From Actinomyces culturomici (GTDB lineage Bacteria; Actinomycetota; Actinomycetes; Actinomycetales; Actinomycetaceae), in NCBI RefSeq assembly GCF_900499005.1, contig NZ_LS991316.1:140579-204578 (forward strand): 64,000 nucleotides of DNA. The letters are read 5' to 3'. The notes under the pieces are model-generated. The model was not told where the DNA came from. It saw nothing but the letters and a program-made list of their open reading frames with translations, and ran no database searches. Both the position numbers and the translations under genes were made by a program. How positions within the stretch are numbered: position 1 is the stretch's first letter; every line of letters begins with the position of its first letter. Below are positions 8,056 through 62,464 of this stretch, piece after piece.

Positions 8056-8210
8056 TACCTGGTTCGCCGTCTCGGCGGGGTTCGGGGGTGGGGGTGTGCG
8101 TCGAGTGTGCGATCTGGGGCGTCCGACGGGTGCTTGGCCCCGTCCTCGTGACCTGGTTCGCCGTCTCGGCGGGGTTCGGGGGTCGGGGTGTGCGTCGAGT
8201 GTGCGATTGA
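8056..8210. repeat. 94-bp repeat array A (about 1.7 units)
   Basis: Two copies of ACCTGGTTCGCCGTCTCGGC begin at 8057 and 8151, exactly 94 bp apart. Each is followed by a G-rich run and GTGCGTCGAGTGTGCGAT. The unit belongs to the same family as arrays B (9509-10050) and C (58985-59290). The period is not a multiple of three and no sustained reading frame with gene-like features is present. Confidence 0.85.
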
Positions 8211-8262
8211 GGGAGTCAGCAGCTCCCGCGGACATCGGCGCGGCAGTCCGCCGAGGCGCCGA

Positions 8263-9309
8263 TCATGCAGACTGCGGGAATCGGGCGCCGCGGTGAATTG
8301 CTCCGCCGCGCGATCGGACGACGGTGTCGATTCGCGAGAGGATCGACTGAGGATCGGAGAGGTCGTCCCAGGTGAATCGAATGAAGTGCCAGCCTCGGAT
8401 CTCGAGGTCCCTCTGCCGCGCCTCCTGAGCGCCCAATGCGTGAAGCTGCTCTTGCGCGGTGAGGCCGTATTTCACGCGCCCGTCCATTTCAATCGCGATC
8501 CTCAAATCGGGGAATCCGAAGTCGATGAAGTAGTGGACGTAGGTGTCCGCGACTTCGATCTGCACGTCGATTCCGCGGATCCCGGCGGACCGAAGGATCC
8601 ACAGAAGTCGCATCTCCGCAACCGACTCGCAGGCGCCTGAGGCATTCTCGACGATCCATCGCGCGCGTCGCCGATTGCGAGTGCCCGGTGGCAGCCTTTC
8701 GATCTCATCGAGCAGGATCTTCCGCACGGCCCGTTCGCGTCGTCGCCAGCCGGATCCGCGTCCCGCGTCCGAGCCAATGAGGAACTTCAACACCTGGCAC
8801 GCGAATCCGAAGGACTCCTCGCCCGGTGCGGCGACCAGGCACTGGAGCAGCACGCCGACGATGCCCTCACGATCGAGTGGCTCGAATGCCGGCTCCGACG
8901 GGATGAGGATTCGGTCGCGGTGGTGCACCGTCGTCGTCGACGGCGCGACGAACATGCCATTGCACGAGATTTCGGCGAAGGCGATTGCATGAGGCGAGGC
9001 CGTCGATCCGCCGGGGACGTGAAGGTGAATCGTCGGATCCTCGCCCATCGCCGAGAATCCGGCGAGCGAAGCGGCGGTGCGGCCGAAGGGACGGCAGCCC
9101 GGTTTCGCTCGGAGGGCCGCGATGGTGCGCGCGGCGATGACGGCATCGCGCCGGTCCCATGGCTTGCGAAGCGACGTGATGACCTCCACGGGGAGGTACG
9201 CCCCGCGGTGTATACGGATGAGGCCGGCGCGCTCGGTCTTGGGGAGCCTGCGGTGCGAGCCGGTGAGGATCATCTGATCTCGCACGGTCTCGAGCAGTTC
9301 TCTTCGCAT
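8263..9309 (-). CDS. AbiEi-like / DUF559 endonuclease-fold protein
   Basis: This is a 348-residue leftward gene starting at ATG 9309 with AGAGGAA about 8 nt upstream. Residues 1-110 resemble the winged-helix N-terminus of AbiEi-type antitoxin proteins (GLIRIHRGAYLPV). The last 140 residues look like the DUF559/Vsr-like nuclease fold, with a PD-(D/E)xK-type pattern: D in YFIDFGFP, E and K in IAIEMDGRVKYG, then a conserved R-x-L-E-I-R-G-W-H and a terminal FTWDDL. Actinobacterial genomes carry many such proteins and their role is not established. No partner toxin gene is adjacent. It is flanked by 94-bp repeat arrays in the same orientation and lies between rpoC and rpsL, which are commonly close neighbours. 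Confidence 0.75.
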   Translation of the reverse strand: MRRELLETVRDQMILTGSHRRLPKTERAGLIRIHRGAYLPVEVITSLRKPWDRRDAVIAARTIAALRAKPGCRPFGRTAASLAGFSAMGEDPTIHLHVPGGSTASPHAIAFAEISCNGMFVAPSTTTVHHRDRILIPSEPAFEPLDREGIVGVLLQCLVAAPGEESFGFACQVLKFLIGSDAGRGSGWRRRERAVRKILLDEIERLPPGTRNRRRARWIVENASGACESVAEMRLLWILRSAGIRGIDVQIEVADTYVHYFIDFGFPDLRIAIEMDGRVKYGLTAQEQLHALGAQEARQRDLEIRGWHFIRFTWDDLSDPQSILSRIDTVVRSRGGAIHRGARFPQSA

Positions 9310-9508
9310 GGTCGTCGTTCCTCTCGCGCGTCGTGCTGCGAGTCTTCCGGTCCAGCGTTCTCCCGCCAAGAGGCGGGCGCTGCCCTGTGGATGGATCTCG
9401 AGTGACGAGGACGCAGCGCCGACGTCGATCGAACGGGTGCAAGCGACTCTCACCGTGAGGGGCCGCCGGGGGAGAGGCTGGTGTGGACGGTCCTGGCCGC
9501 GCGCCCAT

Positions 9509-10050
9509 GACCTGGATCGCCGTCTCGGCGGGGTTCGGGGATCGGGGTGCGCGCCGAGTGTGCGTTCTGGGTGCTGTAGTGCCCGGATTCGGTGCGGTTC
9601 ACGACCTGGATCGCCGTCTCGGCGGGGGTTGTGGGTCGGGGTGCGCGTCGAGTGTGCGTTCTGGGTGCCGCAGCGCCCGGATTCGGTGCGCTTCATGACC
9701 TGGATCGCCGTCTCGGCGGGGTCAGGAGGTTGGGGTGCGCGTCGAGTGTGCGTTCTGGGTGCTGCCGTGCCCCGATTCGGTGCGGTTGGTGACCTGGATC
9801 GCCGTCTCGGCGGGGGTTGTGGGTCGGGGTGTGTGTCGAGTGTGCGTTCTGGGTGCTGCCGTGCCCCGATTCGGTGCGGTTGGTGACCTGGATCGCCGTC
9901 TCGGCGGGGTCTGGAGGTCGGGGTGTGTGTCGAGTGTGCGTTCTGGGTGCTGTAGTGCCCGGATTCGGTGCGGTTCACGACCTGGATCGCCGTCTCGGCG
10001 GGGTTCGGGGATCGGGGTGCACGCCGAGTGTGCGATCCGGGGCGTCTGAG
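9509..10050. repeat. 94-bp repeat array B (about 5.8 units)
   Basis: Copies of GACCTGGATCGCCGTCTCGG begin at 9509, 9603, 9697, 9791, 9885 and 9979, each step exactly 94 bp. Units differ by a few substitutions but no length change, and the last is cut off near 10050. Each contains CGCCGTCTCGGCG, a small hairpin, then a G-rich stretch, GTCGAGTGTGCG, and a GGATTCGGTGCG tail. The spacer 9310-9508 before it shows no gene. Confidence 0.92.
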
Positions 10051-29630: not shown

Positions 29631-29699
29631 GGTACCTGGATCGCACACTCGGTGGGGGTTGGCGCTCGGGGAGTACGCCGAGACGGCGATCCAGGTAGT
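29631..29699. repeat. Single degenerate unit of the 94-bp repeat family (reverse)
   Basis: ACCTGGATCGCACACTCGG at the left and CGAGACGGCGATCCAGGT at the right match the reverse orientation of the 94-bp family with the middle shortened. No neighbouring copies are present. Confidence 0.6.
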
Positions 29700-29838: not shown

Positions 29839-29967
29839 AACACGCGTTTGGCGGGTTTGCCGGTGTTTGGCGGGTATGGCGGTGTTTGGCGGCTTTTCGA
29901 GTGTTTGGCGGCGCAAAATCGGCGATCCTGACCTGCCAAACGTCAGGAAAGCCGCCAAACGCGTGTT
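29839..29967. repeat. TTTGGCGG element, copy 1, with perfect terminal inverted repeats
   Basis: AACACGCGTTTGGCGG (29839-29854) is the exact reverse complement of CCGCCAAACGCGTGTT (29952-29967). Between them GTTTGGCGG or close variants recur in tandem. The central hairpin is imperfect here (TTTGGC/GCCAAA). Related elements lie at 37870, 38174 and 58877. No coding capacity is apparent. Confidence 0.8.
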
Positions 29968-30000
29968 GGGGGAGGGGACGGACGCAGCGGGGCGCCCTGT

Positions 30001-30160
30001 CGATGCGCGGTCGCAAGCTCTGCCGAGGCGGGCGCCCTGTCGATGCGCGGGCGCAAGCTCTGCCGAGGCGGGCGCCCTGTCAATGCGCGGTCGCAAGCTC
30101 TGCCGAGGCGGGCGCCCTGTCGATGCGCGGTCGCAAGCTCTGCCGAGGCGGGCGCCCTGT
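30001..30160. repeat. Four tandem 40-bp repeats
   Basis: Units start at 30001, 30041, 30081 and 30121, each beginning C[GA]ATGCGCGG and ending GGCGCCCTGT, with only two single-base differences among them. A partial unit precedes at 29991. There are no spacers, so this is not a CRISPR array. The rest of 29700-30225 shows no gene. Confidence 0.92.
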
Positions 30161-37869: not shown

Positions 37870-37979
37870 AACACGCATGTGGCGGCGTTGTTGGTGTTTG
37901 GCGGCGTTGTTGGTGTTTGGCGGCGATATTTGGGCCTATTTGCGCCGCCAAATGTCGGGAAACACGCCAAACGCGTGTT
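37870..37979. repeat. TTTGGCGG element, copy 2
   Basis: AACACGCATGTGGCGG (left) and ACGCCAAACGCGTGTT (right) are imperfect inverted ends. Inside, TTTGGCGGCG (37916-37925) pairs perfectly with CGCCGCCAAA (37943-37952) over a 17-nt loop. Copy 3 has the same stem and loop length. Confidence 0.8.
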
Positions 37980-38173: not shown

Positions 38174-38261
38174 CCGTGTTTGGCGGCTTTGTGGGTGTTT
38201 GGCGGCGATATTTGGGCCTATCTGCGCCGCCAAACGTCAGGAAACCCGCCAAACGCGTGTT
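38174..38261. repeat. TTTGGCGG element, copy 3
   Basis: The hairpin TTTGGCGGCG (38198-38207) / CGCCGCCAAA (38225-38234) with a 17-nt loop is nearly identical to copy 2, and the right end CCGCCAAACGCGTGTT (38246-38261) equals that of copy 1. The left inverted end is missing. From here to 38520 no gene is visible apart from a GGCCCCGGCCTCGTCGATCC motif near 38430. Confidence 0.8.
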
Positions 38262-52412: not shown

Positions 52413-52433
52413 GGTCTGTTTCCGTGGGAAAGG

Positions 52434-52515
52434 TGATGCTCTCGACGGGGCAAGGTGATGCTTTCGACGGGGCAAGGTGATGCTCTCGGCGGTCTTCGCC
52501 GAGAGCATCACCTTG
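52434..52515. repeat. GGTGATGC repeat cluster with a perfect 19-bp hairpin
   Basis: Three copies of AAGGTGATGCTYTCG(A/G)CG lie in tandem (52434, 52453, 52474). The last faces an inverted copy: CAAGGTGATGCTCTCGGCG (52473-52491) pairs perfectly with 52497-52515 over GTCTT. The same word occurs at 54244, 58772, 59330-59514 and 61548-61590. The rest of 52354-52716 shows no gene. TAGGCT at 52640-52645 is a possible glmM -10 box. Confidence 0.85.
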
Positions 52516-54242: not shown

Positions 54243-54281
54243 AAGGTGATGCTTTCGGCGCGCGAAAGTAATGCTCTCGGC
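54243..54281. repeat. GGTGATGC repeat, two copies
   Basis: CAAGGTGATGCTTTCGGCGC (54243) and GAAAGTAATGCTCTCGGCG (54263) are tandem members of the family seen upstream of glmM. Confidence 0.75.
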
Positions 54282-54331
54282 GAGGGGAGGGGACGGAGTA
54301 GGGCGAGGCGAGGGGGACGGCGAAGGGGAGG

Positions 54332-55382: not shown

Positions 55383-55485
55383 CGCACACAGTTTCTTGAC
55401 CGTTGCCCGCATCGAAACCCTGTGACCAGGACTTTTGGTGCGAGGCCCTGCTCGTCGGGCGTCGGCAGCGCCGAAACTGTGTGCG
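55383..55485. repeat. 13-bp inverted repeat pair between coaA and glmS
   Basis: CGCACACAGTTTC (55383-55395) and GAAACTGTGTGCG (55473-55485) are perfect inverted copies 77 bp apart in the divergent coaA-glmS spacer. They could be paired operator sites or the ends of a remnant element. Confidence 0.6.
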
Positions 55486-57562: not shown

Positions 57563-57592
57563 CGAACCCGCGGGCCCGTCCCTTCTCCTCGC

Positions 57593-57725
57593 GGCGAGCG
57601 CCCCGCCCCGGCCTCGTCGGTCGACGAGCGCGCATCGACTCCTCCCGGTGAGCGCCCCGCCCCGGCCTCGTCGGTCGACGAGCGCGCATCGACTCCTCGC
57701 GGCGAGCGCCCCGCCCCGGCCTCGT
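57593..57725. repeat. 54-bp tandem repeat (about 2.4 copies)
   Basis: CCCCGCCCCGGCCTCGT starts at 57601, 57655 and 57709, 54 bp apart. The first two units also share CGGTCGACGAGCGCGCATCG. The unit contains the GCCCCGGCCTCGTCG motif dispersed through the window. Confidence 0.9.
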
Positions 57726-58771: not shown

Positions 58772-58787
58772 GGTAATGCGGCTCTTC
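58772..58787. repeat. GGTAATGC repeat copy
   Basis: GTCGGCGGGGGTCGGGTAATGC (58758-58779) is a member of the family that is tandem at 59431-59514. A gene-free stretch of about 870 bp starts at 58694. Confidence 0.55.
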
Positions 58788-58870
58788 ACGATCTGGGGGT
58801 GTGGTCGGGTGAGGCGGCGGTCTGGAGCCTCCCGGTGCTGCGGTCCTTCTCGGCGCGTGTGGTGGCTTTC

Positions 58871-58950
58871 CTCATGTTCGGCGGCGATACGAGGCGCCGG
58901 GATTTCGCCGCCGAACGGCGCCGAACGCCATCAAACGTCGTGAAAGCCGC
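58871..58950. repeat. TTTGGCGG element, copy 4 (compensatory variant)
   Basis: TTCGGCGGCG (58877-58886) pairs perfectly with CGCCGCCGAA (58906-58915) over a 19-nt loop. Compared with copies 2 and 3, the third pair has changed from T-A to C-G on both strands. Downstream ATCAAACGTCGTGAAAGCCG resembles the tail of the other copies. Confidence 0.7.
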
Positions 58951-58984
58951 CGAGCACTCCGACGGAAGCCCACCGAAGCAGGTC

Positions 58985-59290
58985 GAGACGGCGATGCAGG
59001 TCATGCGGGCCACCGATCCCGTGCGCAGAGCGACTTGGATCGCACACTCGACGCCCCTCCCCGCCCACCATCCACGCCGAGACGGCGATGCAGGTCGTGC
59101 GGGCCATTGATTCCGGGCGTGCGGCGACGTGGATCGCACACTCGACGCCCCACCCCACCCACCACGCGCGCCGAGACGGCGATGCAGGTCGTGCGGGCCA
59201 CCGCTCCCGGGCGTGCGGCGACGTGGATCGCACACTCGACGCCCCTCCCCACCCACCACGCGCGCCGAGACGGCGATGCAGGTCGTGTAG
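58985..59290. repeat. 94-bp repeat array C (about 3.2 units, reverse orientation)
   Basis: GCGATGCAGG begins at 58991, 59085, 59179 and 59273, again exactly 94 bp apart. Each unit contains TGGATCGCACACTCGACGCC and CCGAGACGGCGATGCAGGTC, the reverse complement of the array B core. The units differ from array B mainly in the G-rich middle. Confidence 0.9.
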
Positions 59291-59329
59291 GGCACTGACA
59301 ACCGGCTACACCCCCGACTGCGAAGAGCC

Positions 59330-59514
59330 GGTAATGCTCTCGGTGCTGGTCGGGTAATGCCTTCGGCAAATGAGGGGCGGGCGGCGCCCCCGTCGCTCGT
59401 GTCAGCAAAGAGATCCCCTCGGCGCGCGAAGGTGATGCTCTCGGCGGGGCCGGGTAATGCCGTCGGCGGGAACCGGGTAATGCCGTCGGCGGGGGTCGGG
59501 TAATGCTCTCGGCG
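59330..59514. repeat. GGTAATGC repeat array
   Basis: GGTAATGCTCTCGG (59330) and GGTAATGCCTTCGGC (59353) are followed by four tandem units starting at 59431, 59453, 59476 and 59499 (periods 22-23 bp), each GGTRATGC followed by CGTCGGCG or TCTCGGCG. No gene is seen. Confidence 0.85.
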
Positions 59515-61397: not shown

Positions 61398-61422
61398 GCC
61401 GCCGGGCGGCCAGCCCTGCGGG

Positions 61423-61519
61423 TGCTGGCAGTCCGGGTACTGGCAGTCCGAGTGCTGGCAGTCCGGGTACTGGCAGTCCGAGTGCTGGCAGTCCGAGTGC
61501 TGGCAGTCCGAGTGCTGGC
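61423..61519. repeat. 15-bp tandem repeat (6.5 copies)
   Basis: Units TGCTGGCAGTCCGAG, with variants TACTGGC and CCGGG, begin every 15 bp from 61423. It starts 26 nt after the stop of the MerR gene. The period keeps a frame open on both strands, but there is no start signal. Confidence 0.95.
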
Positions 61520-62280: not shown

Positions 62281-62369
62281 TCCGCGCGCCGGGATCGGGA
62301 GGGGCGTCGCGCGGCTGGGTCCCGGTTCGTCATTGGAGTGGTTGACGACAATCGGAGGGGGTATGGGCC

Positions 62370-62464
62370 CTCCACTTGACGCGAACCCCTCCACTTGACG
62401 CGAACCCCTCCACTTGACGCGAACCCCTCCACTTGACGCGAACCCCTCCACTTGTCGCGAACGC
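62370..62464. repeat. 19-bp tandem repeat (5 copies)
   Basis: CTCCACTTGACGCGAACCC repeats at 62370, 62389, 62408, 62427 and 62446 (the last with TTGTCGCG). Variants occur as paired copies at 38051 and 38132. It lies between the convergent S4-domain gene and the ABC permease remnant. Confidence 0.95.

Follow-up and report, generated by a model that had tools for sequence, protein, structure and literature searches.

A length-conserved 94-base minisatellite of Actinomyces culturomici, probably carried in about half of its loci by an ISL3-type miniature element

Results

Repeat arrays in the window

The window, i.e. the whole stretch of 64,000 nucleotides analysed in this work, corresponds to positions 140579-204578 of contig 17 in the 2.56 Mb genome of Actinomyces culturomici. 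A gene encoding a DUF559 domain (E 1.1e-4; window positions 8266-9309, minus strand) lies there between rpoC and rpsL, flanked on both sides by direct arrays of a 94-base repeat; rpsL begins about 400 bases past the end of the second of these arrays, whose right flank resembles, by eye, the spacer of the first. A single copy of the repeat and a third array, the latter inside a probable miniature element, are found further on. The repeat contains two conserved cores, A (ACCTGGATCGCCGTCTCGGCG) and B (which read backwards is ACCTGGATCGCACACTCGRCG), and the features of the window are as follows:

8057..8212, plus strand: array 1, two A-B units with a period of 94, terminal inverted repeat not found (A at 8058-8077 and 8152-8171; B at 8102-8114 and 8196-8208)
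9510..10041, plus strand: array 2, six A-B units, terminal inverted repeat not found (A starting at 9511, 9605, 9699, 9793, 9887 and 9981)
29634..29696, minus strand: one complete A-B unit, the ends of which are near-palindromic (ACCTGGATCGC ... GCGATCCAGGT)
58772..58779: first copy of the target-site duplication, GGTAATGC
58780..59329, minus strand: probable whole ISL3-type miniature element of 550 bases, with leader, array 3, trailer and inverted ends
58780..58803, plus strand: right terminal inverted repeat, in plus orientation GGCTCTTCACGATCTGGGGGTGTG, diverged (8 mismatches, ungapped)
58804..58980, minus strand: type 1 trailer, rich in GTTYGGCGGC and its complement
58981..59283, minus strand: array 3, inside the miniature element, A-B-A-B-A-B-A (four A, three B; A at 59263-59282, 59169-59188, 59075-59094 and 58981-59000)
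59306..59329, minus strand: left terminal inverted repeat GGCTCTTCGCAGTCGGGGGTGTAG with 2 mismatches; the first A follows at a distance of 47 bases from its start
59330..59337: second copy of the target-site duplication, GGTAATGC, which here belongs to a dispersed family of 22/23-base repeats

All three arrays reported by the initial annotation are present, and so is the single copy at 29631; each of the nine start-to-start steps in the window measures 94 bases. Tandem Repeats Finder likewise gives a period of 94 with 0% indels for 9506-10041 (5.7 copies) and 58984-59287 (3.2 copies). The single copy had been described as degenerate; however, it carries an exact A (29676-29695, minus strand) and an exact B (29639-29651, minus strand).

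Genome-wide census and anatomy of the unit

A motif search of the whole genome returned 100 matches to A at up to three mismatches, compared to 2 for the backwards pattern, and 87 matches to B at up to one mismatch, compared to 1 for the backwards pattern; some of the three-mismatch A matches are B sites on the opposite strand. From 27 stretches we tabulated 29 arrays, each with one to six A sites (87 in total, 77 of them with B). Positions of A were assigned manually in this tabulation; matches in two stretches (L094 and L095) and scattered three-mismatch matches were excluded as chance, and the unit C17:545249-545333, scored in a later profile search, lies outside these counts. The A site at position 130400 has a B-type triplet on either side. 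The family is real and occurs at several loci, as had been claimed, but the number of loci is about 29 rather than four. Its non-coding character was correctly recognized, none of the 29 arrays overlapping a gene predicted by our gene model.

The distance from one A to the next is 94 bases in 56 of 58 cases and 95 in the other two, hence the period proposed to be invariant is so in the window but not throughout the genome. From A to B the spacing is 44 bases in 74 of 77 units, 45 in two and 43 in one, while from B to the next A it is 50 in all 58. A lone A without B terminates 10 of the 29 arrays. The off-length A-B intervals are found in the first unit of L086 and of L087 and in the last unit of L092, a position at the array edges that is no evidence on its own, since 53 of all 77 intervals occupy such a position anyway. 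MAFFT placed no gaps among 18 units from 14 arrays, all of which had been chosen at 94 bases.

A and reversed B are variants of a single site; they face each other in opposite orientation and contain the triplet CGT or ACA. Between arrays, A diverges by 9.7% and B by 4.2%, compared to 42.5% for the A-B spacer and 40.3% for the B-A spacer. Identity of whole units is 0.896 within arrays versus 0.715 between arrays, and units from L078, L081, L088 and L092 intermingle on the unit tree. The start of L084 (C18:1) coincides with the contig start and L074 (C17:222189) with an apparent join, both inside near-identical arrays, so that the assembly may cap the number of copies at these two places.

Ends, leader, trailers and target duplications

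Many arrays are preceded by GGCTCTTCACAGTTGGGGGTGTAG, whose first 21 bases, i.e. the inverted end, occur in 19 copies in the genome at up to three mismatches (0 for the backwards pattern). For the analysis of ends we used 28 arrays, leaving out the one cut by the start of contig 18. A left end at up to six mismatches was found in 14 of them, in all 14 exactly 47 bases ahead of the first A; in the same stretches, equally good left ends were found at 8 of 2000 random spots, real ends included. The leader length of 47 is thus half of 94 in each of these 14 arrays, and the last leader bases resemble, by eye, the B-A spacer (e.g. window 59283-59329).

Nine of the 28 arrays were counted as two-ended, in elements of 430-910 bases. 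Seven qualified by a right end at up to four mismatches, and the window element and L085, whose right ends have eight mismatches each (the left end of L085 being also shortened), were admitted for their identical 8-base flanks. At random spots, real ends included, right ends at up to four mismatches were found in 27 of 500 cases and at up to eight in 46 of 500. Among the nine elements, the 8-base flanks are identical in five, differ by one mismatch in two and are unlike in two. Because right ends with eight mismatches also arise by chance, the stricter count is that of the seven elements without the two admitted by flanks: three identical, two with one mismatch and two unlike. GCATTACC accounts for four of the five identical flanks; as part of a dispersed repeat it is weaker evidence of duplication. 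The fifth flank, AGTAGTCC, is a different target.

The elements thus combine features of MITEs: terminal inverted repeats and target duplications (in some arrays), no transposase of their own, and ends that match those found beside transposase pieces.

Candidate ISL3 transposase partner

The ISL3 transposase family (PF01610) has matches at seven places in the genome, some of them fragments. On contig C19, a transposase piece (DDE_Tnp_ISL3, 1.9e-50) starts at the contig end; the inverted end and GCATTACC come after it. On contig C4, the opposite end lies at GCATTACC, together with a 131-codon frame that has no Pfam match of its own and shares 66% identity over 119 residues with the N-terminus of the ISL3 transposase of a relative. 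The matching ends beside these pieces are located at C4:3115 and C19:1041. This sequence arrangement suggests that the two pieces are one ISL3 copy, broken by the assembly or by another insertion; we counted it against the mobile-element reading that the candidate autonomous copy is split in two pieces at contig ends.

The inverted end was also found in 22 of 34 other genomes of the genus, where it bounds elements of 1.44 kb. Of the end pairs that relatives show in 15 stretches, seven enclose 1436-1447 bases and four 1023-2429; the longest open frames in the former seven comprise 222-458 codons, with at least 444 in four of them. Two full frames of relatives match DDE_Tnp_ISL3 (4e-49 and 7e-55) and Zn_ribbon_ISL3. 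The 8-base flanks in relatives are identical at L202, L203, L204, L206 and L213, with a simple 1436-base element at L213 only, and differ at L205, L212 and L214. Tandem Repeats Finder reported no tandem array with a score of at least 60 in 16 stretches from relatives, in the same run that recovered the window array. Among the 12 of 186 matches listed, plasmid relatives are about 63% identical and annotated as ISL3 or ISPfr2-like; an ISPfr2-like element located on a Rhodococcus plasmid contains similar sequences at two sites, one about 100 bases ahead of the transposase gene and one at the end of this gene.

Arrays without recognisable ends

No end could be recognised for seven arrays, which include array 1, array 2 and the copy at 29634-29696 and which all lie on C17 between 111 and 171 kb. 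Five of them begin with an A and finish with a B, the one at 130400 shows B-type sites to its left and right, and the remaining one ends on a lone A; inspection by eye revealed nothing clear in the way of target duplications around them. Worn left ends are seen at L069, L077, L080, L082 and L083, and L088 has a trailer and lacks the ends. On the unit tree the end-less arrays occupy mostly long branches and form no single group, which fits their age. On the other hand, their adjacency on contig 17 (7 contiguous of 19, P 0.0003, with labels set once the data had been inspected) agrees with a local origin and is not the pattern expected if scattered insertions had decayed. These arrays may be insertions so old that their ends have worn away, or they may represent the ancestral form, later captured by an ISL3 element.

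Other repeats near the arrays

A dispersed motif, GGTRATGCTCTCGGCG, is found at up to two mismatches at window positions 52432-52512, 54245-54282, 59330-59514 and others. It has 62 copies in the 28 array-centred stretches, 61 of them outside predicted genes (two stretches were not gene-called); the copies are often 22 bases apart, and the motif contains the commonest target of the ISL3-type element and has CTCGGCG in common with A. A second family, GTTTGGCGG, is present at 29846-29961 (in 19-base steps), 37896-37972 and 38178-38254, with an inverted copy 64 bases further on at all three places. A third, GAACAAGCGCGCA, is found at 165-243 (in 26-base steps), 10092 and 55517. At 55383-55485 there is an inverted pair of CGCACACAGTTTC, a repeat that is nested in type 2 trailers and resembles the matches in relative G152. 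Further tandem arrays with 91-98% matches lie at 29990-30160, 57585-57725, 61422-61519 and 62368-62462 (periods 40, 54, 15 and 19, respectively).

Distribution in relatives

The exact pattern was found in only one of 213 genomes of the family, that of A. culturomici itself. A sequence profile of the unit has 94 matches in this genome; in 10 of 34 relatives it has one match each (E 7.4e-4 to 0.0096), which we took as chance. A DNA search of 35 genomes of the genus gave strong matches in the own genome only and weak ones in seven relatives (best E 5.6e-6 to 0.006). The best of the latter (G152, 5.6e-6) is to the nested GCACACAGTTTC repeat, present in 13 places, and that in G143 (6.5e-5) falls in a stretch judged by eye to be coding. 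None of the matches to the 94-base family in the 34 relatives is convincing. Upstream of rpsL in 29 relatives (1.5 kb at most, and less at two loci), a single A-like match with five mismatches (L191) was found. Two single matches in public contigs (Tropicimonas and Mycobacterium records) were taken as chance, and viral contigs gave no match. Judging by the exact-pattern and profile searches, the family seems to be restricted to this species or to the strains closest to it.

Conservation of unit length

In a parsimony count with one unit per array (26 arrays, including the one cut on contig 18), the units show 318 substitutions and 1 indel, in accord with the earlier claim that substitutions are tolerated and length is nearly fixed. 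For the two types of trailers, the ratios of substitutions to indels are 149 to 7 (in 7 copies, excluding L069) and 92 to 2 (in 6 copies), i.e. 241 to 9 in sum. The difference between units and trailers is significant (Fisher P 0.006; P 0.002 for all 57 units, with 445 to 2). Unit length is better kept than the length of the flanking trailers. Pairwise counts, in which pairs below 62% identity were dropped, agree in direction, the contrast being smaller (0.06-0.08 versus 0.12-0.155).

Among equal-length pairs of units from different arrays, gapped alignment beats ungapped alignment in 623 of 1432, a number for which no null was computed. Adjacent units in three arrays seem to be related by an insertion that a deletion makes up for, and the first unit of L086, 95 bases long, resembles an intermediate of such compensation. 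Shuffled sequences match the scores of the compensated alignments in 37-100 of 5000 trials, and at L088 the gapped score is better by only one; compensated indels are therefore suggestive only.

Discussion

Taken together, the inverted ends, the duplications in some copies and the presence in the genome of an ISL3-family transposase whose ends match argue for ISL3-type miniature elements that carry a minisatellite. We consider it probable that the arrays are an intergenic 94-base minisatellite, which in about half of its loci is a passenger of a non-autonomous MITE of the ISL3 family. Such an element would comprise a 47-base leader opening with GGCTCTTCACAGTTGGGGGTGTAG, between one and six units, a trailer belonging to either of two types and a second inverted repeat, with an 8-base target duplication on its flanks. 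It could have been moved in trans by the ISL3 transposase of the C19/C4 type or by a lost relative. The number of units may have been altered through slippage or unequal recombination, and units may have been exchanged among arrays by recombination. Most likely, something would also act against changes of length, be it a recombination process that requires the register to be kept or a protein bound to phased sites. An amplification mechanism had been among the options of the initial annotation, and it is partly borne out by the carriage of many arrays by an ISL3-type mobile element, but the inverted ends, target duplications and transposase had been missed.

It is possible, if doubtful, that the units form a phased protein-binding lattice under selection, with a nucleoid protein, a regulator or the transposase bound to the putative sites A and B. 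The 94 bases correspond to about nine helical turns, with all A sites facing one way, and the mobile element would merely spread the lattice. The contrast between the well-kept cores and spacers that diverge by 40-43% and yet keep their length speaks for such a lattice; the apparent balanced insertions and deletions and the leader of half a period point the same way. However, common descent together with register-dependent recombination could also preserve length, the trailer control is small and alignment-dependent with a weaker pairwise contrast, and the edge position of the three off-length intervals says little. Moreover, units of 84 or 104 bases, which helical phasing alone would permit, are absent. 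It is tempting to go further and speculate that the captured minisatellite became a length-locked mobile array of putative phased protein sites, in which spacer indels are lost or compensated and the sequence is free to drift, but we regard this scenario as rather unlikely.

Plain slippage of a satellite, with nothing special in its length, is unlikely, even if it would account for the high identity within arrays and would have company in the tandem families with 19-, 22- and 26-base steps in the same stretches. A family spread over about 29 loci, with inverted ends at many of these and target duplications at some, needs a means of dispersal beyond slippage; in addition, close spacings in the 22-base family vary (22 in 15 cases, 23 in 4), whereas the 94-base family deviates in 2 of 58. 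The initial annotation would have settled for ordinary slippage on finding either frequent variation of unit length or absence of the family from relatives: convincing matches in relatives were indeed not found, but variation of unit length is rare.

A family of the REP/BIME type moved by a RAYT (Y1) transposase would share the alternating inverted related sites, the tandem units and the intergenic location, but the ends are of the ISL3 type and PF01797 has no match in the genome (the control being positive in 5 of 14 known genomes), and we rejected this very improbable reading.

The structured RNA suggested in the initial annotation, i.e. a transcribed unit folding on the A/B inverted repeat, is the least credible reading: the consensus arms can pair over 11 positions (86.9% of paired cells versus 16-44% when slid, as expected from the consensus) and RNAalifold predicts 13 pairs, but in 18 distinct 94-base units of our selection compensatory changes are absent from both the A/B stem and the RNAalifold fold (paired cells 86.9% versus 87.3% in shuffled data, covariation score 0.109 versus 0.116, covariation term of the predicted consensus fold -0.04), the orientation of arrays relative to neighbouring genes is mixed, and nothing but a tRNA reached the gathering score in Rfam.

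With about 29 loci and 87 sites in one genome, the family represents a natural experiment on why the length of a repeat holds while its sequence drifts, and the length constraint is the part worth following.

Comparison with known systems

BOX elements of Streptococcus pneumoniae consist of a repeated middle module between two end modules; they differ from the present family in sequence and host. Like the arrays described here, which have other repeat families nearby, they are bunched with other intergenic repeats, according to the available text of a review (PMC10969869), the main text of which mentions neither ISL3 nor the word tandem. In BIMEs, REPs are regularly spaced in alternating orientation (available text of PMC2817692), which resembles our regular arrays of alternating inverted sites, the difference being that a RAYT gene was not found in this genome. 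Insertion sequences of the ISL3 family (ISPfr2-like) share with our elements similar ends, the DDE_Tnp_ISL3 transposase and 8-base duplications. However, the two-ended elements of A. culturomici carry arrays within their 430-910 bases, and no array with a score of at least 60 was found in the 16 stretches from relatives.

A tandem repeat that drifts in sequence at a nearly constant unit length is uncommon, yet the family has close parallels in print. One of them is the 187-bp MITE of Microcystis aeruginosa, whose ends start with GGCTCTTCG and which is flanked by 8-nt direct repeats and ascribed to ISL3-family transposases (PMC11448079, as far as its main text goes). The 8-base duplications and the presence in the genome of ISL3-family transposases with matching ends are common to both systems. 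On the other hand, the Microcystis element has over thirty identical copies, some also within genes, and no tandem repeat is described in the main text of that article, from which the word tandem is absent.

The other parallel is BrickBuilt of Porphyromonas gingivalis, described in the available text of PMC4596501 as a MITE that trapped a direct repeat, with a leader and a tail bearing terminal inverted repeats. It is strictly intergenic, and its unit number varies among strains. Of the 19 copies present in one strain, 11 have parts of both leader and tail, 3 only the leader, 2 only the tail and 3 neither. BrickBuilt is also reported to have promoter activity. The family of A. culturomici resembles it as an intergenic minisatellite inside a MITE with leader and tail. 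The two are set apart by unit length and type of insertion sequence: the BrickBuilt unit, in the same text, has 23 nt and no spacer, compared to 94 bases with two inverted related sites and a nearly fixed length here, and its ends resemble ISPg1/ISPg9 of the IS5 family rather than ISL3. In the largely open-licence literature we found no paper on the 94-base family, and in the open-licence literature none that combines a minisatellite with an ISL3-type MITE. The minisatellite within a MITE and the ISL3-type MITE are each in print, and it is their combination that is the new part.
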